A stretch of 34,008 bases of DNA from Winogradskyella sp. (GTDB taxonomy: Bacteria > Bacteroidota > Bacteroidia > Flavobacteriales > Flavobacteriaceae), in NCBI RefSeq assembly GCF_013042245.1, contig NZ_JABDQL010000055.1, positions 1-34,008 on the forward strand. Reading direction: 5' to 3'. Shown piece by piece: positions 20,444 through 28,495 of the stretch (the first letter of the stretch is position 1; every line of letters starts with the position of its first letter). Position numbers and translations under genes: made by a program. Below the pieces are notes generated by a model. It was not told the DNA's origin and did no database searches. It saw nothing but the letters and a program-made list of their open reading frames with translations.

Positions 20444-21691
20444 ATGCAACAAAAGCAAACCCATTTTTATGCGATTGGTCTCAGCTACAAGAAAGCTGAT
20501 GCCGAAATACGTGGTCATTTTAGTTTAAGTGATGATGCAAAGTCATCTATTTTAAAGGAAGCAAAAGCACATGGCGTAGAAAGTTTGCTTTTGGTTTCGA
20601 CCTGTAACCGAACAGAAATTTACGGTTTTGCAGAACGTCCATGCCAACTCATTGAGTTACTTTGTGAAAACACTAAAGGTACGGTCGAAGAATTCCAAAA
20701 GGTAGCTTACGTTTATAAAAATAAAGATGCTATAGCGCATATGTTTCGTGTTGGATCTGGATTAGACAGCCAAATTCTAGGTGATTTTGAGATTATTGGT
20801 CAACTTAAAGCTGGTGCTAGAAAATCTAAAGCCGCAGGTTTACTAAATTCTTACATTGAGCGTTTGCTTAATGCTGTTATCCAAGCAAGCAAGCGCATTA
20901 AAAACGAAACGGAATTATCATCTGGCGCAACATCGGTTTCTTTTGCCTCTGTGCAATATATTATGAACAATGTTCAGCATATTTCAGACAAAAATATTCT
21001 TCTTTTTGGCACTGGAAAAATAGGTCGTAATACCTGTGAAAATTTAGTAAAACACACTAAAAATCCACATATAACACTTATCAACAGGACTAAAAATAAA
21101 GCTGAGGCTATTGCAGGTAAATTCAACTTAATCGTAAAAGATTATGAAGATTTACAAGAAGAAATCAATGCTTCAGACATTATAGTCGTTGCAACAGGTG
21201 CACAAAACCCAACGGTTAAAAAAGCACTTATTGCAACAGATAAGCCATTATTAATATTAGATTTATCTATCCCGAAGAATGTTAACGAAGATGTGAAAGA
21301 ATTGGATAACGTTAATTTAGTACACATGGACGATTTGGCAAAAATCACTGATGATACTGTTGAAAAACGTAAGGCATTCATTCCCGCTGCACAAATCATT
21401 ATAGATGAAGTTTCTGCTGATTTCTACTCATGGTTAGACACATTAAAATTTGTACCTACAATCCAAGCTATAAAACACAAGTTGACGGAAATTAAAAATT
21501 CTGAAGTCAATACACAACGCAAAAAATTGAACGATTTTAATGAGGAACAAGCCGAATTGATTACTAATAATTTGATACAAAAAATTACCAATCAATTTGC
21601 GCACCACTTAAGAGAGGATTCAAACACTTCTAATGACAGCTTAGAGCTCATTAAAAAAATATTTCAGTTAGAAACCACCCAAAATGTCTAG
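20444..21691 (+). CDS. hemA: Glutamyl-tRNA reductase
   Basis: The enzyme reduces glutamyl-tRNA to glutamate-1-semialdehyde with NADPH, the first committed step of C5-route tetrapyrrole synthesis. From the ATG at 20444 it has 415 residues. The catalytic Cys is C54 in LLLVSTCNRTEIYGFAE, the NADPH Rossmann segment is ILLFGTGKIGRNTCENL, and SGATSVSFASVQYI is the conserved linker. The frame also opens at a GTG at 20411, but that lies within the promoter box, so the ATG is chosen. The end overlaps hemCD by eight bases. Its presence shows that the organism uses the glutamate route, not ALA synthase. The partner aminomutase hemL is not in this window. Confidence 0.96.
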   Translation: MQQKQTHFYAIGLSYKKADAEIRGHFSLSDDAKSSILKEAKAHGVESLLLVSTCNRTEIYGFAERPCQLIELLCENTKGTVEEFQKVAYVYKNKDAIAHMFRVGSGLDSQILGDFEIIGQLKAGARKSKAAGLLNSYIERLLNAVIQASKRIKNETELSSGATSVSFASVQYIMNNVQHISDKNILLFGTGKIGRNTCENLVKHTKNPHITLINRTKNKAEAIAGKFNLIVKDYEDLQEEINASDIIVVATGAQNPTVKKALIATDKPLLILDLSIPKNVNEDVKELDNVNLVHMDDLAKITDDTVEKRKAFIPAAQIIIDEVSADFYSWLDTLKFVPTIQAIKHKLTEIKNSEVNTQRKKLNDFNEEQAELITNNLIQKITNQFAHHLREDSNTSNDSLELIKKIFQLETTQNV

Positions 21692-23270
21692 AATAATTCG
21701 CATTGGCACACGCGATAGCCAGCTCGCTATGTGGCAAGCAAAAACCGTTCAATCTCAGCTTGAACAAATAGGTCATAAATCTGTTTTAGTTCCTGTAAAA
21801 TCTACAGGAGATATTGTTCTCGACAAACCTTTATATGAGTTAGGAATCACGGGTATTTTTACAAAAACATTAGATATTGCTATGCTTAATGGTAATATTG
21901 ATATTGCCGTACACTCCTTAAAAGATGTGCCAACGGTTTTACCAAAAGGGATTGTTCAAGCTGCAGTTCTTAAACGCGGAAATATTAATGACACACTAGT
22001 CTTTAAAAAAAATGAAGAGTTTTTATCCCAACGTGATGCAGTTATTGCAACGGGAAGTTTACGTCGTCGTGCACAATGGCTAAATCGCTATCCAACGCAT
22101 ACAGTTGTTGGACTAAGAGGAAACGTAAATTCTAGACTAGAAAAATTAGAAAGTAACGACTGGAATGCTGCTATTTTCGCAGCCGCAGGTTTAGGACGTT
22201 TAGGTATAAAACCTGAAAATGCTATTAATTTACATTGGATGATTCCAGCACCAGCTCAAGGTGCTGTAATGGTCGCGGCTTTAGAGGAAGATGAAGAAGT
22301 TAAAGCTATTTGTGCGGAAATTAACCACAGAGAAACCGAAATTTGCACTGGTATAGAGCGTGAATTCTTAAATAGACTCGAAGGTGGATGTACCGCTCCA
22401 ATTGGTGCTATTTGTTATATCAATAAGGAAGAAGAAATTAACTTTAAAGGCATTCTTTTAAGTAAAGATGGCACCAGAAAAATTGAAGTCACTAAGGTTG
22501 TTGAACTAGGAAAACATGATAAATTAGCAGAATTTTGTGCCGATTACGTTATCGGAAAAGGTGGAAAAACACTAATTGATCAATTACAACGTAGTGACAA
22601 AACGACGAATATCTACTCAACAAAAACACTGACGGACGACCAGCAATTGTTGTTTCATAATGACGTGGTTACCAAAAGCAATGATGCTATAAAAATTAGC
22701 TTAAATCGTATACCAAAAACGATTGTAAAGTCTGAAATTGAAAACGTTATAATTACCAGTAAAAATGCGGTTGAAGCATTATTGACTAACTTTTCGGCAA
22801 TAGAATTACAATTCAAAAATATTTATTGCGTTGGTAGACGCACTAAACGTATGATTGAAAAACGTATTGGAAAAGTCACGCATATGGAAGCGAATGCTAA
22901 GAAGCTTGCTGATTATTTAGTGGATTATATTGAAGGTACTGAAGTCACTTATTTCTGTAGTGATTTACGTTTAGATGATTTACCAAACATATTAACTGAG
23001 AATAATATCAAAGTGAATGAAGTTGAAGCCTACCAAACTAAATACGATGGAGAGAAACTAGAAAATTCAGTTGATGGAATTCTATTTTATAGCCCTTCTA
23101 CAGTTGATGCTTTCTTAAAGGTGAACAAAGCTAACGGTATTGCATTTTGTATAGGTGAAACTACGGCAAATACTGCTAAAAAACATTTTGAAGATGTTAG
23201 AATTGCAAAAATACCAACAGTAGAAAGTGTTATAGAATTAGTAAACGAATTTTATGCTGTTGACTCCTAG
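21684..23270 (+). CDS. hemC: Hydroxymethylbilane synthase / uroporphyrinogen-III synthase fusion
   Basis: A 528-residue fusion of two successive enzymes. Residues 1 to about 300 are HemC: IRIGTRDSQLAMWQAK (5-20), the catalytic D81 in HSLKDVPTVLP, the substrate arginines in ATGSLRRRAQWL (122-133), and C236 in RLEGGCTAPIG, which carries the dipyrromethane cofactor. Residues of about 335-528 are HemD-like: ENVIITSKNAVEAL, IYCVGRRTKRMI, VTYFCSDLRLDDLPN, and GILFYSPSTVDAFL with FCIGETTANTAKKHF. HemC polymerises four porphobilinogens and HemD closes the ring with D-ring inversion, so the fusion may channel the unstable hydroxymethylbilane. It overlaps hemA by eight bases. After the stop the operon is interrupted by a four-helix-bundle cassette. 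Confidence 0.94.
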   Translation: MSRIIRIGTRDSQLAMWQAKTVQSQLEQIGHKSVLVPVKSTGDIVLDKPLYELGITGIFTKTLDIAMLNGNIDIAVHSLKDVPTVLPKGIVQAAVLKRGNINDTLVFKKNEEFLSQRDAVIATGSLRRRAQWLNRYPTHTVVGLRGNVNSRLEKLESNDWNAAIFAAAGLGRLGIKPENAINLHWMIPAPAQGAVMVAALEEDEEVKAICAEINHRETEICTGIEREFLNRLEGGCTAPIGAICYINKEEEINFKGILLSKDGTRKIEVTKVVELGKHDKLAEFCADYVIGKGGKTLIDQLQRSDKTTNIYSTKTLTDDQQLLFHNDVVTKSNDAIKISLNRIPKTIVKSEIENVIITSKNAVEALLTNFSAIELQFKNIYCVGRRTKRMIEKRIGKVTHMEANAKKLADYLVDYIEGTEVTYFCSDLRLDDLPNILTENNIKVNEVEAYQTKYDGEKLENSVDGILFYSPSTVDAFLKVNKANGIAFCIGETTANTAKKHFEDVRIAKIPTVESVIELVNEFYAVDS

Positions 23271-23273
23271 CCT

Positions 23274-23284
23274 TTAGCTGTTAG
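23274..23284. repeat. Left inverted repeat of the first four-helix-bundle cassette
   Basis: TTAGCTGTTAG here is the exact reverse complement of CTAACAGCTAA at 23682-23692. The arms bracket the broken S23-type gene between hemCD and hemE. A further partial copy, reading AACAGCTAAAAGCC, lies at the end of the gene (from 23656). Confidence 0.7.
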
Positions 23285-23296
23285 TAGATAGAACAA

Positions 23297-23663
23297 ATGA
23301 GAAATTTTAGAACACTAGATATCTGTAAAAATGGAATTGAAATTGTTAAGCAAGTCTATGTTCTTTCTCAACAGTTACCTGCTGAAGAAAAGTTTGGATT
23401 AAGATGTCAAATCAAAAGAGCCTCTGTTTCAATCCCTTCTAATATTGCCGAAGGCTTTAGCAGAAATAGTGAAGTAGAATTTAAAAGATTTCTTGAGATT
23501 TCTTGAGATTGCGATAGCTTCACTTTTTGAAGTTGAAACGCAATTGATTATTATGTAAGAATTAAATTTTATAGAATCAGAAAAATTAAAATCCATTTTT
23601 CAACTATTAGAAAAAGAAGGCAAAATGATAAACGGAGTAATTAACACAATAAAAAACAGCTAA
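23297..23663 (+). pseudogene. S23/IVP-type four-helix-bundle protein, disrupted by a 10-bp duplication
   Basis: The frame opens MRNFRTLDICKNGIEIVKQV and shows the family core KRASVSIPSNIAEGFSRNSE, as in proteins encoded by 23S rRNA intervening sequences and in Avd-like proteins. A perfect tandem copy of TCTTGAGATT at 23491-23510 adds ten bases, shifting the frame to an immediate TGA. Reading on in the original frame gives AIASLFEVETQLIIM, then a TAA at 23556-23558, then ELNFIESEKLKSIFQLLEKE and a natural stop at 23661-23663. So one frameshift and one nonsense change make it a pseudogene of about 117 codons. It fills the gap between hemCD and hemE and is flanked by inverted repeats. Biochemical function of intact relatives is not known. 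Confidence 0.88.
23491..23510 (+). repeat. 10-bp tandem duplication
   Basis: TCTTGAGATT occurs twice in direct succession. Removing one copy restores the S23-type reading frame through KRFLEIAIASLF, so the duplication is the frameshifting event. Confidence 0.9.
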
Positions 23664-23680
23664 AAGCCAAGGGGCCAATA

Positions 23681-23700
23681 GCTAACAGCTAACAGCTAAC
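23681..23700. repeat. 7-bp tandem repeat forming the right end of the cassette
   Basis: Almost three copies of GCTAACA stand immediately before the hemE start codon at 23702. They contain two copies of CTAACAGCTAA, each complementary to the left arm at 23274-23284. Confidence 0.8.
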
Positions 23701-23701
23701 C

Positions 23702-24733
23702 ATGATTAAAAACGATTTATTTTTAAGAGCTTTAAAAGGAGAAACTGTAGAGCGTCCACCGGTATGGATGATGCGCCAAGCTGGTCGTTATCTACCAGAA
23801 TTCATGGAAATAAAGGCCAAGTACGATTTCTTTACACGCTGCCAAACTCCAGAACTAGCAAGTGAAATAACTGTGCAGCCTATTCGCCGTTATGGTATGG
23901 ATGCTGCTATTTTATTTTCAGATATTTTAGTCATTCCTCAGGCTATGAATATCGAAGTGCAAATGAAACCCAATTTTGGACCTTATCTACCAAACCCCAT
24001 ACGTTCTCAAAAAGATGTAGATAATGTCATCGTTCCTGATGTAACGGTTGAATTGGACTATGTTTACCAAGCGATAAAAGCCACAAAAGAAAAACTCAAC
24101 GATGAAATTCCACTTATAGGTTTTGCAGGTTCGCCATGGACCATTTTATGTTATTGTGTACAAGGTCAAGGTTCTAAAAACTTTGATAAAGCCAAAGAAT
24201 TTTGTTTTACAAATCCTATAGCTGCTCATCTATTATTACAAAAAATTACAGATACCACCATTGCTTATCTTAAAGAGAAAGTTAAGGCTGGTGTTAACGC
24301 TGTACAAGTTTTCGATTCTTGGGGCGGTATGCTATCACCTGTCGATTATCAAGAATTTTCTTGGCAATACATTCAGCAAATTATTGATGCCTTAAAAGAC
24401 GAAACTCCAGTGATTGCCTTTGGAAAAGGCTGTTGGTTTGCACTTGGCGAAATGGCCAAATCTGGAGCTTCTGCATTAGGAATCGATTGGACGTGTTCTG
24501 CTAGAAATGCACGTTATTTAACTGGAGGAAATATAACATTACAAGGTAATTTTGACCCAACACGATTATTTTCTCCGCCAGCCGAAATCAAAAAAATGGT
24601 ACACCAAATGATTAATGAATTTGGGAAAGACAGATACATTGTAAATTTAGGTCATGGTATTTTACCAAATATTGGTTTGGACAATGCCAAAGCATTTATT
24701 GATGCGGTTAAGGAATATAAAAGCCCATCTTAA
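23702..24733 (+). CDS. hemE: Uroporphyrinogen decarboxylase
   Basis: The enzyme removes four carboxyl groups from uroporphyrinogen III to give coproporphyrinogen III in the cytoplasm, without a cofactor. The 343-residue product has the diagnostic [17 protein letters not shown] with R25 and R29, and the catalytic D74 in [15 protein letters not shown]. Further family motifs are [16 protein letters not shown] and [11 protein letters not shown], with LGHGILPNI near the C-terminus. Length is normal. Its start codon lies one base after the tandem repeat of the preceding cassette, so its 5' leader has been replaced by inserted DNA. It is followed by a 128-bp gap with a weak hairpin, then the EI24-like gene. 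Confidence 0.96.
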
Positions 24734-24752
24734 TCTCCAAGATAGAAAGAAA

Positions 24753-24773
24753 TTATTACTTTAAACGTAATAA
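24753..24773 (+). terminator. Weak hairpin downstream of hemE
   Basis: TTATTAC and GTAATAA form a 7-bp AT-rich stem around a 7-base loop, 20 bp after the hemE stop. There is no long T-run after it, so it may not terminate strongly. It lies in the 128-bp gap before the EI24-like gene, where I see no clear TAnnTTTG promoter. Confidence 0.3.
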
Positions 24774-24861
24774 ATTCAGGTTTATATTCCATTGATTTGT
24801 AACATTGTTAATGGTTTAGCGTCGTATTTTATACAACACTTTACCACCAAAAACATAAAAA

Positions 24862-25650
24862 ATGATTAACAACATTTTTAAAGGCCTTCAAGTATATTCC
24901 GGAGCATATGGATTAATTTCTAAGCTAAAACTTTGGAAATACTTCGTTATTCCGATGATTATCAGCTTTGTTGTTTTTGCACTAATTTTTATTTCAGCTT
25001 ATGGTCTTTCCGATAATCTAGGAGAATGGATTGCGGGTATCTGGCCTTGGGAAACAGGCAAAACTACAGTAACTTTTATTTCGACAATTATTAGTGGAAT
25101 TATCATTTTTGCTTTGGGTTTAATTATGTATAAGCATATCATAATGGCATTATCCTCGCCGTTTATGAGCCCTGTTTCAGAAAAGATTGAAGAATACTAT
25201 ACAGGTCAAAAAGCTATAAATCGAACAAAAGCTTCGTTTGCTCAACAATTAATAAGAAGCATAAGGTTAGGGCTTCGCAATCTCGCTAAGGAATTGTTGT
25301 ATACCATTCCTATTTTACTATTAAAGTTTATTCCTGTAATAAATATATTTTCAACAGCCCTTTTATTTATAGTTCAAGCCTACTATGCAGGATTTGGAAA
25401 CATGGATTACACCTTAGAACGTCATTTTTCATACAAAGAAAGTGTTACTTTCATTAGAAAGAATAGGGGTTTTGCAATAGGTAATGGTATCGGGTTTTTA
25501 CTGCTCCTATTTATACCTGTAATCGGTGTTATACTGGTATTACCTCTAAGTGTAACCTCAGCGTCAGTGATTGCTGTAGATTTATTATTTGATGATGATG
25601 AAGGAGACCATATTGGTTTTGAACCTTTCGAAGTAATTGAAAATAGATAA
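24862..25650 (+). CDS. EI24/CysZ-like membrane protein
   Basis: A 262-residue inner-membrane protein with about four to five long hydrophobic stretches. It begins FKGLQVYSGAYGLISKLKLW followed by KYFVIPMIISFVVFALIF, a pattern of the EI24/CysZ family, and continues with SSPFMSPVSEKIEEYYTG and late helices around FAIGNGIGFLLLLFIPVIGV. CysZ imports sulfate in some bacteria, but EI24-like proteins of Bacteroidota have no proven substrate. The tail is acidic (DLLFDDDEGDH). Its TAA overlaps the ATG of the acetyltransferase gene, so both are probably part of the hem transcript. No direct role in heme synthesis is evident. Confidence 0.8.
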   Translation: MINNIFKGLQVYSGAYGLISKLKLWKYFVIPMIISFVVFALIFISAYGLSDNLGEWIAGIWPWETGKTTVTFISTIISGIIIFALGLIMYKHIIMALSSPFMSPVSEKIEEYYTGQKAINRTKASFAQQLIRSIRLGLRNLAKELLYTIPILLLKFIPVINIFSTALLFIVQAYYAGFGNMDYTLERHFSYKESVTFIRKNRGFAIGNGIGFLLLLFIPVIGVILVLPLSVTSASVIAVDLLFDDDEGDHIGFEPFEVIENR

Positions 25651-26189
25651 TGGTTGCACAATTCAATGATTTTGAAATTAGCTCTGTACACGAAGGAGAT
25701 GCTTGGGAAATCTGTGACTTATGCGTAGCAAATACAGACCGTTTTAAACGTTATTTTTCAAAGACTTTAGCACAAAATCTAAATCCAACATTATCACAAT
25801 ATTTTGTAGATAAAAAAGTAAAACAGTTTGAGGATAAGGTCGAATTTCTCTTCACTTTAAAACAGTCTAAAACTCGAAAACTCATGGGCCTTATTTACAT
25901 CAAAGAGCTTGACTGGGGTAAAAAACAAGGTGAATTTGCCTATTGTATTGATTATAATTTTGAAAAAAAAGGTTTAATTTCCAAATCTATAAAAGTATTG
26001 TCAGAGTACGCGTTTAAGAATTTAGGCTTAGAGACACTTCAAATTATATCTCATAAAACTAACTTAAGAAGCATAAAGATTGCCGAAAAGAATAATTTTA
26101 AGTGGATTAAAACGCTTAAAGGAGAATATACACCTCCTAATGAACAACCACTAGACATGGAGTTATTTGAATTATATGATGAAAGATAA
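25650..26189 (+). CDS. GNAT-family N-acetyltransferase (RimJ/RimL-like)
   Basis: A 179-residue GCN5-related acetyltransferase. The core strand and acetyl-CoA region are visible in MGLIYIKELDWGKKQGEFAY and CIDYNFEKKGLISKSIKVLSEYAF, followed by the typical LQIISHKTNLRSIKIAEKNNF, close to the RimJ/RimL pattern LxxxVxxxNxxSxxxxEKxGF. It should transfer an acetyl group from acetyl-CoA to an amine; the substrate is unknown. Its ATG shares an A with the EI24 stop (TAATG), and its end overlaps the hemF start, so it is translationally linked to both. No membrane segment is present. Confidence 0.85.
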   Translation: MVAQFNDFEISSVHEGDAWEICDLCVANTDRFKRYFSKTLAQNLNPTLSQYFVDKKVKQFEDKVEFLFTLKQSKTRKLMGLIYIKELDWGKKQGEFAYCIDYNFEKKGLISKSIKVLSEYAFKNLGLETLQIISHKTNLRSIKIAEKNNFKWIKTLKGEYTPPNEQPLDMELFELYDER

Positions 26190-27081
26190 ATTTTACGAAT
26201 ACATACAAAACCTACAAGACTTAATCACTTCAAAACTGGAAGCAATTGATGGTCTTGCTCAGTTTCAAGAAGATTTATGGGTACGTCCAGAAGGTGGAGG
26301 TGGACGAACACGAGTTATTGAAAATGGACGCGTTTTTGAAAAAGGTGGTGTAAATATTTCTGCCGTTCATGGAGAACTTCCAAAAACTATGCAGCAACAC
26401 TTTGGTGTTACAGATGCCCATTTTTTTGCATGTGGTTTAAGCTTAGTTTTACATCCTAAAAACCCAATGGTACCAACAGTGCACGCTAATTGGCGTTATT
26501 TTGAAATGTATGATGGTGACGGAAATATCGCAGACCAATGGTTTGGTGGCGGGCAAGATCTAACACCCTATTATTTGTTTGATGAAGACGCGAAACACTT
26601 TCATCAAGTATGTAAAACAGCCTGTGATAGACATCACCCAGAATTTTATCCAAAGTATAAAGCACGATGCGATGAATATTTTTACAATGCACACCGAAAC
26701 GAAGGCAGAGGCATAGGCGGTTTATTTTTTGACTATTGTAAAAAAACCAACGACATGAGTATGGAAAACTGGTATAACTTTGTAACCGAAGTTGGTGATA
26801 GTTTTTTGGATGCTTATGTTCCAATTGTAGAAAAACGAAAAGATTTAGATTATACTGAAGCCCAAAGAAACTGGCAGGAAATTAGACGTGGTCGCTATGT
26901 AGAATTCAATTTAGTACATGACAAAGGCACATTATTTGGGCTAAAAACAAATGGGCGTATAGAAAGTATTCTGATGAGTCTGCCACCACATGTGCAATGG
27001 GTATACGACCACCACCCCGAAAAAGGTAGCAAAGAAGAAAAACTAATTAAGATATTACAAAAACCAATTGACTGGGTATAA
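26179..27081 (+). CDS. hemF: Oxygen-dependent coproporphyrinogen III oxidase
   Basis: The enzyme oxidatively decarboxylates coproporphyrinogen III to protoporphyrinogen IX using O2. From the ATG at 26179 it has 300 residues. Conserved segments are WVRPEGGGGRTRVIENGRVF, GGVNISAVHGELP, VPTVHANWRYFEM, the long QWFGGGQDLTPYYLFDEDAK, and RYVEFNLVHDKGTLFGLKTN. Starts at a TTG (26167) and at an ATG (26176) are in frame; the second ATG fits the family best. It overlaps the GNAT gene end by 11 bases. Its presence implies aerobic growth; the anaerobic alternative hemN/hemZ is not in the window. After its stop the operon is interrupted by the second four-helix-bundle cassette. Confidence 0.95.
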   Translation: MKDKFYEYIQNLQDLITSKLEAIDGLAQFQEDLWVRPEGGGGRTRVIENGRVFEKGGVNISAVHGELPKTMQQHFGVTDAHFFACGLSLVLHPKNPMVPTVHANWRYFEMYDGDGNIADQWFGGGQDLTPYYLFDEDAKHFHQVCKTACDRHHPEFYPKYKARCDEYFYNAHRNEGRGIGGLFFDYCKKTNDMSMENWYNFVTEVGDSFLDAYVPIVEKRKDLDYTEAQRNWQEIRRGRYVEFNLVHDKGTLFGLKTNGRIESILMSLPPHVQWVYDHHPEKGSKEEKLIKILQKPIDWV

Positions 27082-27083
27082 AT

Positions 27084-27114
27084 AGTTAAAAGTTTTAAGC
27101 AGAAAGTTAAAAGT
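27084..27114. repeat. Left repeats of the second four-helix-bundle cassette
   Basis: AGTTAAAAGT occurs at 27084-27093 and again at 27105-27114, directly before the ATG of the four-helix-bundle gene. Between them AGTTTTAAGC (27091-27100) pairs with GCTTAAAGCT at 27475-27484 with one mismatch, giving an inverted repeat around the gene. Confidence 0.65.
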
Positions 27115-27474
27115 ATGGTTAACTACAAGAATTATACGGTATGGCAAAAATCACATCATCTAGTACTAAAGATTTATAAAACTACGGGGGCGTTCCAAAA
27201 ATCAGAACAGTTTAATTTTGTATCTCAAATAAATCGTACGGCACTATCTATACCTACAAATATAGCTGAGGGTTGTGGTAGAGAAACTCAAAAAGAACTC
27301 ATTCGGTTTCTTTATATAGCATCAGGTTCAGCTCATGAACTAGATTACCTTATCTTAGCATCTACAGAACTTGGCTTTGTAAAGAAGGTAGACTCTGAAA
27401 ACCTTATTAAAAATGTTGATGAAATTAAAAAAATGCTATTTTCTTTAATAAAAACTATCAAAAAAACACTTTAA
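27115..27474 (+). CDS. S23/IVP-type four-helix-bundle protein, intact
   Basis: This 119-residue protein belongs to the four-helix-bundle family first seen in intervening sequences of bacterial 23S rRNA and related to Avd of diversity-generating retroelements. It starts MVNYKNYTVWQKSHHLVLKI and has the core QINRTALSIPTNIAEGCGRE, then ELIRFLYIASGSAHELDYLI and a basic C-terminal helix. It probably forms a small oligomeric bundle that can bind nucleic acid; the actual role outside those systems is unknown. It stands alone between hemF and hemB, flanked by short inverted and direct repeats, like the broken copy before hemE. The two copies share the SIPxNIAEG core but differ widely elsewhere, so they are separate insertions and not a recent duplication. 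No reverse transcriptase or variable repeat is nearby. Confidence 0.9.
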   Translation: MVNYKNYTVWQKSHHLVLKIYKTTGAFQKSEQFNFVSQINRTALSIPTNIAEGCGRETQKELIRFLYIASGSAHELDYLILASTELGFVKKVDSENLIKNVDEIKKMLFSLIKTIKKTL

Positions 27475-27491
27475 GCTTAAAGCTTAATACT
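27469..27491. repeat. Right repeats of the second cassette, with a perfect palindrome
   Basis: CTTTAAGCTTAAAG at 27469-27482 is a perfect 14-bp palindrome that covers the stop codon of the four-helix-bundle gene. The pattern TTAAGC-TTAAAGC-TTAA continues to about 27487, a near 7-bp tandem repeat like the GCTAACA array of the first cassette, and lies 15-20 bp before hemB. Confidence 0.7.
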
Positions 27492-27505
27492 TACAACTAT
27501 AGAAT

Positions 27506-28495
27506 ATGTTCCCAATAAGACGCAATAGAAGACTAAGAACCAACGAAGCTATTAGAAGCTTAGTTAGGCAAACCATAATTTCTCCAAACGATTTTTTAGT
27601 CCCACTTTTTATAGTTGAAGGAAAAGGTATTAAAGAAGAAATTGCATCAATGCCTAATTACTATCGTTACAGTCTAGACTTACTTAAAGAGGAAGTTAAA
27701 TCGTTATGGCAATTAGGCCTTAAATCTGTTTTATTGTTTGTTAAGGTAGATGATACTTTAAAAGATAATAAAGGTACAGAAGCCTTAAATCCAAATGGCT
27801 TAATGCAACGTGCAATAAAAACCGTTAAGGATGTTTGCCCAGATATGTTAGTAATGACAGATGTAGCCCTAGACCCATTTTCTGCTTACGGTCATGATGG
27901 GATTATCGAAAACGGAAAAATAGTAAACGATGCTACTGTTGAAGTTTTAGCAGAAATGAGTATTTCTCATGCTGAAGCTGGTGCCAATTTTGTTGCACCA
28001 AGTGATATGATGGATGGCCGTATTTTGGGTATCCGTGAAGCACTCGACCAATCTAATCTCATTGATGTTGGCATCATGAGTTACTCTGCAAAATACGCAT
28101 CTGCTTTTTATGGGCCTTTTAGGGATGCTTTAAATTCTGCTCCTGTAGATATAGAAAATGTGCCAAAAGACAAAAAAACATACCAGATGGATTTTGCCAA
28201 CAAGGATGAAGCCATCCGTGAAACTGAAATGGATATTAATGAAGGGGCAGACATCGTCATGGTAAAACCAGGTTTAGCCTATTTAGATATTGTTCGCGAT
28301 ATTAGAAACAACTTTGAGATTCCTATTGCAGTGTATCAAGTATCTGGAGAATATGCGATGCTTAAAGCTGCTGCCGAAAAAGGTTGGTTAGACCATGATG
28401 CTGTAATGCTAGAACAAATAACTTCTATTAAGCGTGCTGGGGCAGATATCATAGCAAGTTACTTTGCTAAGGATGTTGTGAAATTGATTTCGTAA
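27506..28495 (+). CDS. hemB: Delta-aminolevulinic acid dehydratase (porphobilinogen synthase)
   Basis: The enzyme condenses two 5-aminolevulinate molecules to porphobilinogen. The 329-residue product has both Schiff-base lysines: K196 in MSYSAKYASAFYGPF and K254 in IVMVKPGLAYLDI. The metal region reads TDVALDPFSAYGHDG (118-132), with Ala121, Asp123 and Asp131 in place of the three cysteines of zinc enzymes, so this is the Mg-dependent, zinc-independent type. FVAPSDMMDGRI and YQVSGEYAMLKAA are also typical. It is the last hem gene of the cluster and is separated from hemF by the intact four-helix-bundle cassette. A small AT-rich inverted repeat (AATTAG/CTAATT) follows its stop, 30 bp before the CNNM-type gene. 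Confidence 0.97.
   Translation: MFPIRRNRRLRTNEAIRSLVRQTIISPNDFLVPLFIVEGKGIKEEIASMPNYYRYSLDLLKEEVKSLWQLGLKSVLLFVKVDDTLKDNKGTEALNPNGLMQRAIKTVKDVCPDMLVMTDVALDPFSAYGHDGIIENGKIVNDATVEVLAEMSISHAEAGANFVAPSDMMDGRILGIREALDQSNLIDVGIMSYSAKYASAFYGPFRDALNSAPVDIENVPKDKKTYQMDFANKDEAIRETEMDINEGADIVMVKPGLAYLDIVRDIRNNFEIPIAVYQVSGEYAMLKAAAEKGWLDHDAVMLEQITSIKRAGADIIASYFAKDVVKLIS

Follow-up and report, generated by a model that had tools for sequence, protein, structure and literature searches.

S23-family intervening sequences and heptamer repeats

Among the closest described systems to the elements reported here is the intervening sequence (IVS) of 23S rRNA genes. In Coxiella, according to the sections of PMC4990558 that treat it, this IVS measures 428 nt, carries an S23p frame in its loop, has complementary ends and tandem heptamers before the start codon, and is cut by RNase III at the first repeat; its S23 gene is described there as undergoing reductive evolution, and S23/IVP proteins are said to be without a known function. 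The current study concerns two genes of this family, S23a and S23b, which lie in separate gaps of one heme operon of the flavobacterium Winogradskyella sp. (assembly GCF_013042245.1, contig NZ_JABDQL010000055.1, positions 1 to 34,008, forward strand; this whole stretch of 34,008 nt is referred to as the window). With a confidence slightly better than even, both are interpreted as members of a widespread class of small intercistronic elements, in which one S23 gene stands between inverted arrays and for which we use the name S23 cassette.

The hem cassettes share with the 23S rRNA IVSs of Coxiella and Leptospira an S23-family frame, a length of about 430 nt, complementary ends, tandem heptamers beside the frame, and a patchy occurrence at fixed sites, as far as these are described in the same sections of PMC4990558. 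Unlike the rRNA IVSs, they are not located in a helix of a 23S or 16S rRNA gene but in gaps of a protein operon, between hem genes, and the operon cassettes differ from the described Coxiella element in having arrays at both ends and an S23 gene under purifying selection. Complementary ends around the S23 frame are present in both cassettes of the window, weakly in the second. Seven other S23 loci and a hem locus without S23 (L044) gave no Rfam match at the gathering score.

Short tandem repeats of the same unit length have been reported separately, e.g., the GGGAATC heptamer arrays of Xanthomonas, which are mostly intergenic and form 70 inverted pairs in X. campestris (passages of PMC4692102), and the TAACTGA arrays of Beggiatoaceae, cyanobacteria, and five Bacteroidetes (passages of PMC4679880). 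The heptamers described there for Xanthomonas, Nostoc, and Beggiatoaceae resemble the S23 cassette arrays in their tandem unit of about 7 nt, their mostly intergenic location, and the occurrence of some inverted pairs, whereas the S23 cassette arrays bracket a gene and vary in their unit by lineage. The terms "S23" and "four helix" have 0 occurrences in the main texts of the two articles. A table on Flavobacterium columnare lists, under phage elements, a four-helix-bundle gene between the genes for guanylate kinase and nicotinate-nucleotide adenylyltransferase (PMC5524665, table). Among the titles and the beginnings of abstracts listed by searches of the open-licence PMC literature, no account of S23 genes in protein-operon gaps with inverted arrays was found.

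Two S23 cassettes in the heme operon of Winogradskyella

The operon runs in the order hemA, hemCD, hemE, a gene for an EI24-type membrane protein, a gene for a GNAT protein, hemF, and hemB; the label of hemA was read from the sequence, and the remaining hem names are based on Pfam matches. A sequence-only reading of this DNA had located S23/IVP genes in the hemCD|hemE and hemF|hemB gaps alone, and this was borne out: the gaps measure 434 and 427 bp (last aligned codon to next gene, stop included), the S23 profile has no further match in the window, and neither gap contains another open reading frame (ORF) of at least 70 amino acids (aa). The two cassettes and their neighbours comprise the following features.

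21684..23270, + strand: hemCD fusion, 5' neighbour of cassette 1 (Pfam PF01379, PF03900, PF02602)
23268..23291, + strand: upstream arm of cassette 1, TTAGCTG-type repeats, starting at the hemD stop codon (inverted repeats I1, I2, I5)
23297..23663, + strand: S23a, disrupted S23/IVP gene, hemD|hemE lineage (PF05635 in two pieces, 76.6 + 44 bits; internal TGA and TAA; ends read from the sequence)
23486..23505, + strand: 10-bp tandem duplication, frameshift in S23a (direct repeat D3)
23655..23699, + strand: downstream arm of cassette 1, NAGCYAA-type array adjoining the hemE start codon (repeat search; pattern matches at 23658 with 1 mismatch, 23673, and 23680)
23702..24733, + strand: hemE, 3' neighbour of cassette 1 (PF01208)
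26179..27081, + strand: hemF, 5' neighbour of cassette 2 (PF01218; start read from the sequence)
27084..27114, + strand: upstream arm of cassette 2, with weak repeats of the TTAAAAG / TTTAAGC type (repeats D1, D3, I1)
27115..27474, + strand: S23b, intact S23/IVP gene for a four-helix bundle, hemF|hemB lineage (PF05635 123.1 bits; TIGR02436 121.8 bits; model confidence 97)
27468..27487, + strand: downstream arm of cassette 2, overlapping the S23b stop codon (repeats D1, I1)
27506..28495, + strand: hemB, 3' neighbour of cassette 2 (PF00490)

In cassette 1, the TTAGCTGTTAG arm at the hemD stop and the AGCTAACAGCTAACAGCTAA array beside the hemE ATG face each other with 17 nt of 88% complementarity (23268-23284 / 23682-23698), and in cassette 2 the arms pair over 18 nt with 83% complementarity (27090-27107 / 27468-27485). 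The repeat brackets proposed for the two genes are thus real, and the class to which they belong exceeds its controls (see below), with the qualification that the repeats of cassette 2 are weak. In a correction to the earlier reading, S23a is not an intact gene, as the tandem duplication shifts the frame and is followed by a TAA at 23556-23558. The first piece of S23a is 79% identical (54/68) to the intact gene in the hemD|hemE gap of another genome (L014), and S23b is 75% identical (89/119) to the gene in the hemF|hemB gap of L068. Between piece 1 of S23a and S23b the identity is 33% (22/67), so that the earlier statement that the two share only a SIPxNIAEG core was too strong; by their sequences they nevertheless are two distinct lineages.

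Cassette 1 can be regarded as a degenerating occupant of hemD|hemE, an old address, and cassette 2 as an intact member of a lineage that is also present at hemF|hemB and hemE|hemN elsewhere. Of the proposed independent arrivals, the separate lineages have stood; two fresh, unrelated insertions special to one heme operon were rejected because both lineages are found at the same gaps in other genomes. In addition, the nine PF05635 matches of the window genome comprise the two pieces of S23a, S23b, and six at other places.

Inverted heptamer arrays flank S23 genes as a class

Flavobacteriaceae S23 genes were collected from named hem loci, 68 genomes of the genus, and 199 genomes of the family. 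The genus search gave 301 PF05635 matches; 30 of these were made into loci, and 80 further regions were added. The family search contributed another 30 loci and 100 further regions. Among 289 hits of the S23 profile, 261 were near full length and 253 were distinct with enough flanking sequence; a first set of 126 genes served for the control comparison and the protein tree. Since these sets hold the best-scoring among the matches listed, broken S23 copies are under-counted.

On both sides of these 253 genes, a unit of about 7 nt is repeated in tandem, and the upstream array is reverse-complementary to the downstream one; because of this opposite orientation, the cassette ends are inverted repeats. 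The best flank-to-flank complementarity averaged 13.0 for the first 126 genes, compared with 8.6 in 651 control ORFs, 8.5 when partners were swapped, and 8.1 after shuffling. A gene's own partner ranked within the best 5% in 161/253 cases, and the site-median rank p was <=0.05 at 40 of the 69 first-pass sites. The flanks match themselves at lag 7 with a frequency of 0.446 (shuffled, 0.317) and at lag 8 with 0.366 (shuffled, 0.313). The unit, read by eye, varies by lineage and includes TTAGCTN, GTGATGCG, TTAGATC, TATTGAG, and others. Repeats around other S23 loci, which the sequence-only reading had suggested searching for, thus occur around many of them. A second array pattern, of the RAYCAAH type, was left unused, as its reversed control matched equally often because this repeat reads much alike backwards.

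Chance repeats beside ordinary small genes, with no element at all, would explain why the arms of cassette 2 alone are weak and why most single flank pairs fall short of the 99th percentile of the controls. Such an origin is already refuted for the class by the group means against control ORFs and swapped partners, by the 7-nt period, and by the same build in other taxa, whereas cassette 2 on its own would be insufficient as proof. We hold with high confidence that the S23 cassette is a real and general class.

By analogy with the 23S rRNA, the arms might pair in the operon transcript, so that the stem would be cut by RNase III and the S23 stretch removed as an mRNA-level intervening sequence. 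We consider this doubtful, and it is compatible with the S23 cassette as defined above. Predicted RNA folds close a stem of the arms around the S23 frame in both cassettes of the window (z -2.69 for cassette 1 and -0.91 for cassette 2), as in the Coxiella IVS with its S23 frame in the loop, its heptamers at the stem, and its RNase III cut at the first repeat (sections of PMC4990558). These predictions show only that pairing of the arms is possible, and the fold of cassette 2 was equalled or bettered by 17/100 shuffles. Selection for pairing in the sense RNA predicts more G-U than A-C mismatches in the arms; such an excess was sought and found no support, with 161 G-U against 259 A-C (G-U more frequent at 10 addresses and less frequent at 21).

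The gaps of operons as the place of the cassette

According to a plain ORF call, 234/253 S23 genes have same-strand neighbours on both sides; an opposite-strand frame was called on at least one side of 15/253, and 4/253 lacked a call on one or both sides. Neighbours supported by homology, i.e., those with a homologue beside another S23 gene, were on the S23 strand in 232/232 cases upstream and 231/231 downstream and at 32/32 addresses with such support (21 genes upstream and 22 downstream lacked it). The cassette therefore occupies the stop-to-start gap of an operon, with a median of 52 nt from the upstream stop to the S23 start, and the earlier proposal of a repeat-bracketed cassette that tolerates gaps between operon genes is supported.

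Family models name the addresses fadB|thiolase, panB|RluA-family, thiolase|fadE, split metH, rfbB|rfbA, cysN|cysQ, trpG|trpD, prfA|pyrF, gmd|fcl, and hemE|hemN. Partial names are available for one more address with an rlmD match upstream and for three more with groEL, tilS, and hppD downstream; several of the models match only part of a cut gene, below the full-length cut-off. Further addresses, which we take from protein ends to be groES, sufA|sufB, adk|obg, ffh|folD, hisB|hisH, paaE|paaA, and rpsI|rpsB, would extend this list. At the metH address (L126), two genes encode the parts of a split methionine synthase, and an S23 cassette lies between them.

Occupancy of the hem gaps in relatives

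For the comparison of the hem gaps, 80 loci fetched by HemE (the best 80 of 543) were combined with the window to 81 loci. Near-empty alleles of the hemD|hemE gap, which had been proposed as a check, were found in 14/81 loci, S23 (intact or broken) in 16, and other content in 51. Neither of the two outcomes named as refuting in the sequence-only reading, sites without empty alleles and repeats unrelated to those of other S23-type loci, was observed. The near-empty spacer measures 4-25 bp, hemD stop included, and in filled loci the arms replace it; no duplication of the target site was recognised there. The other content includes leftover arrays, palindromic repeats, tRNA-Ser, and, in rearranged operons, other genes. 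A tRNA-Ser(GGA) occupies the gap in Lacinutrix and another genome (L035, L036, L056, L079), and palindromes of the TTCCTGCCTTCGCAGGAATGAC kind are found in its place in other genomes. The hemD|hemE gap takes several kinds of small insert.

On a tree built from HemA, HemCD, and HemE, 14 changes are required for the filled state (16/81 rows), compared with a mean of 14.9 for shuffled labels, and 152/500 shuffles needed as few. The row nearest the window (L014, Winogradskyella wandonensis) is filled with an intact gene, and the next (L012) has a 6-bp gap. The gap is near-empty in W. vincentii (L080). The genes hemF and hemB occur in that order in 62/81 loci, and S23 stands between them in three (window, L068, L074) and in one further family genome (L277). 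Seven loci inspected at hemF|hemB contain non-S23 genes as inserts, about 400-450 bp in five and 1006 bp in two. The five shorter inserts (L019, L022, L037, L055, L024) hold a small gene whose product, of about 125-130 aa and beginning with CYCG, is presumably YchJ/SEC-C-like.

Lineages, addresses, and gene-less arrays

S23 lineage and address agree in the tree of the first 126 proteins, with 22 changes for 21 groups (minimum, 20; shuffled mean, 87.8) and support of 100/97 for the hemD|hemE group and 100/98 for the pair of S23b and the gene of L068. More than one S23 lineage (unlinked at a relative score of 0.52) was present at 5/69 first-pass sites, and close S23 proteins (relative score of at least 0.6) occurred at 32 pairs of unrelated addresses. 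As some addresses had been split among the first-pass sites by miscalled antisense frames, a Mantel test was carried out with 52 conservative addresses. Between unrelated addresses, the more alike the S23 proteins, the more alike are the arrays (rho 0.239, p 0.0005, 0/2000 permutations as high). Individual cases illustrate this relation against a reference in which 99% of pairs with unrelated S23 score <=11: the gene at gmd|fcl (L163) is 76-81% identical to the cysN|cysQ lineage with a mean array score of 18.0, and the gene at hemE|hemN (L320) is 71% identical to both L068 at hemF|hemB (array score 14.5) and S23b (12.2). Further examples of like arrays at unrelated addresses are L275/L124, L351/L301, and L209/L220.

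Empty sites together with copies at other sites, as expected of a transposon or insertion sequence, are thus found, and the changes may be gains or losses. Since lineages recur now and then at a second address with similar arrays, the arms and the gene are probably one moving unit, a view for which correlation and examples speak and which we rate as somewhat likelier than even.

Arrays are also found apart from the gene. In the window genome, the TTAGCTN-type pattern (at most 1 mismatch) matches cassette 1 and five places without an adjoining S23 gene, one of which looks like a chance match in a coding frame. Two genus genomes carry gene-less inverted arrays at a fadB|thiolase gap, which was named by protein ends shared with the S23-filled gap. 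Over the 68 genus genomes, the counts of TTAGCTN-type arrays correlate with those of S23 copies (rho 0.43; 0.36 given genome size). Gene-less arrays with one small inverted pair were observed in L447, L454, L456, L457, and L459, in gaps that presumably correspond to hisB|hisH, paaE|paaA, and rpsI|rpsB, judging from protein ends. In other Winogradskyella loci (L449, L450, L451, L452, L460), long one-way heptamer arrays without S23 lie outside operon gaps, some of them in series.

PF05635 is present in 157/198 sampled Bacteroidota genomes, 59/68 genus genomes (0 to 16 matches per genome over the 68), and 145/199 family genomes. The own partner reached a rank p <=0.05 in 15/29 further Bacteroidota loci, some of the same family, and in 8/14 loci of cyanobacterial plasmids (14/22 records read), where the near-perfect arrays (GGGAACA)n and (TGTTCCC)n face each other in L374 and L408. 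On three such plasmids (L372, L412, L415), S23 lies inside a CRISPR-Cas operon, annotated twice as cas6|cas4 and once as cas10|cmr3.

Descent or movement

The S23 genes could also be old operon genes with a host function, e.g., in operon feedback, that are inherited vertically, repeatedly lost, and immobile, with the arrays as slippage repeats that mark the gap. We regard this as rather unlikely. Nearly every address holds one S23 clade, the gene is under strong purifying selection, and both would follow from vertical descent. It is contradicted by the presence at hemD|hemE, which is scattered no better than shuffled labels, by the sites with more than one lineage, and by related S23 proteins with like arrays at unrelated addresses, and the host operons (heme, fatty acid, methionine, pyrimidine, tryptophan, and sugar nucleotide) have no evident common theme.

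A number of observations weigh against the S23 cassette as a mobile class, and some of them favour the vertical alternative. The distances of S23 at hemD|hemE moderately follow those of HemE (rho 0.41) and HemD (rho 0.46; 17 loci), as vertical descent with loss would, so that much of the history of this address may be vertical; at the same loci, the distances of HemE and HemD correlate more closely with each other (rho 0.64). The approximately unbiased (AU) test did not reject a hemD|hemE lineage in which Winogradskyella forms a single clade (p 0.119), and lateral transfer between Polaribacter and Winogradskyella at this address, which the tree suggests, is accordingly non-significant and was dropped. 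Close S23 proteins have unlike arrays in L339/L256 and L250/L243, both with a score of 6.5, and the arrays of 70 fadB|thiolase versus thiolase|fadE pairs with close S23 score 8.5 on average. With respect to the arms, 33/126 flank pairs singly pass the 99th percentile of the control ORFs, 92/253 own partners lie outside the best 5%, and within an address the fraction of comparisons won by the own partner was 0.33 to 0.65 (8 addresses), the own arms losing on mean at hemD|hemE (14.5 versus 15.7) and thiolase|fadE (10.6 versus 11.5). Own arms thus barely beat those of other genomes within an address, which indicates that the arm match is maintained between lineages only, and the two arms show no clear coevolution at single loci of these 8 addresses. 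Finally, arrays occur without S23, genomes without S23 still carry some arrays (21 in one of them), and the arrays on both sides of the S23 gene at cas6|cas4 in L372 are direct and not inverted.

The S23 protein

S23b (119 aa) exceeds the curated family cut-offs of PF05635 (123.1 versus 33.8 bits) and TIGR02436 (121.8 versus 24 bits). Its predicted model is a four-helix bundle with four helices and a mean predicted local distance difference test (pLDDT) score of 97.1, and it matches 2gsc, an S23 structure solved since 2006, with a TM-score of 0.93, in addition to 2rld and, more weakly, the Avd structure 4dwl (0.80). The kinship stated in the sequence-only reading, to rRNA intervening-sequence proteins and to Avd, is therefore supported by family and by fold, respectively.

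The ratio of nonsynonymous to synonymous substitution rates (dN/dS) had a median of 0.133 over 687 S23 pairs from shared addresses, with no value >0.6, which indicates strong purifying selection on the S23 protein. An alignment of S23b with 39 relatives (40 sequences) contains the invariant polar residues Q38, R41, S45, N49, E52, and E75. Because helix 2 of the predicted model contains five of them and helix 3 the sixth, E75, they likely mark a binding site.

A Pfam scan of S23b found PF05635 only and no transposase or recombinase domain, in agreement with the earlier proposal of a cassette without a transposase. In REP/RAYT systems (repetitive extragenic palindromes and their associated transposases) and in insertion sequences, a gene is likewise bracketed by inverted repeats, and gene-less repeat pairs occur elsewhere; S23b differs from them in lacking a transposase domain. 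A Y1 transposase is thus absent between the repeats of S23b; the rest of the genome was not searched for this enzyme.

Membership in a diversity-generating retroelement or another reverse-transcriptase system, with S23 in the role of Avd, would be in line with the fold (TM-score 0.75-0.80 to 4dwl and the chains of a retroelement ribonucleoprotein, based on the predicted model) and with a weak sequence likeness (PHROG 3206, 28.7 bits). It is highly improbable, since S23b remains far below the curated Avd cut-off (20.5 versus 80 bits) and RVT_1 had no match in the window genome (86% complete) or in another 52 of the 68 genomes of the genus, including the three richest in S23 matches (G024, G046, G027). 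A dependence on reverse transcriptase is likewise unsupported by the window genome. Carriage by phages was dismissed as well, as S23b matched none of 50,697 phage records at an E value of 1e-5 and one viral contig was the single trace, and a role in antiphage defence was discarded with no PADLOC match in the 3 proteins tried.

A possible way of life of the S23 cassette

The place of the S23 cassette, its sense, its arrays, and the selection on its gene are observed; how it persists may be pictured as follows. The cassette would presumably be expressed by read-through of the operon in which it resides. The scattered occurrence could plausibly stem from homologous recombination through the flanking genes, by which filled and empty alleles would be exchanged, and occasionally a lineage would reach a new address together with similar arrays. 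The arrays, either folded back or as tandem sites, are probably recognised by the S23 protein that they bracket, and this recognition may keep or spread the cassette, while the enzyme for cutting and joining would be supplied by the host.

A further-reaching hypothesis, which is possible and is offered tentatively, is that S23 cassettes constitute their own class of mobile elements, in which a non-enzymatic, ring-forming four-helix-bundle S23 protein recognises the lineage-specific inverted arrays of about 7-nt repeats around its gene and spreads them from one operon gap to another via host enzymes alone. The rRNA IVSs would then be a branch that has settled in rRNA, and the scattered inverted heptamer arrays of Bacteroidota, cyanobacteria, and Xanthomonas would be gene-less derivatives.

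The pattern provides a direct test, i.e., whether an S23 protein binds the array around its own gene but not the array of another lineage. It also suggests a possible origin for the heptamer repeats reported independently from several phyla, and the S23 cassette is a candidate for a class of small, recombinase-less elements that settle between the housekeeping genes of operons.

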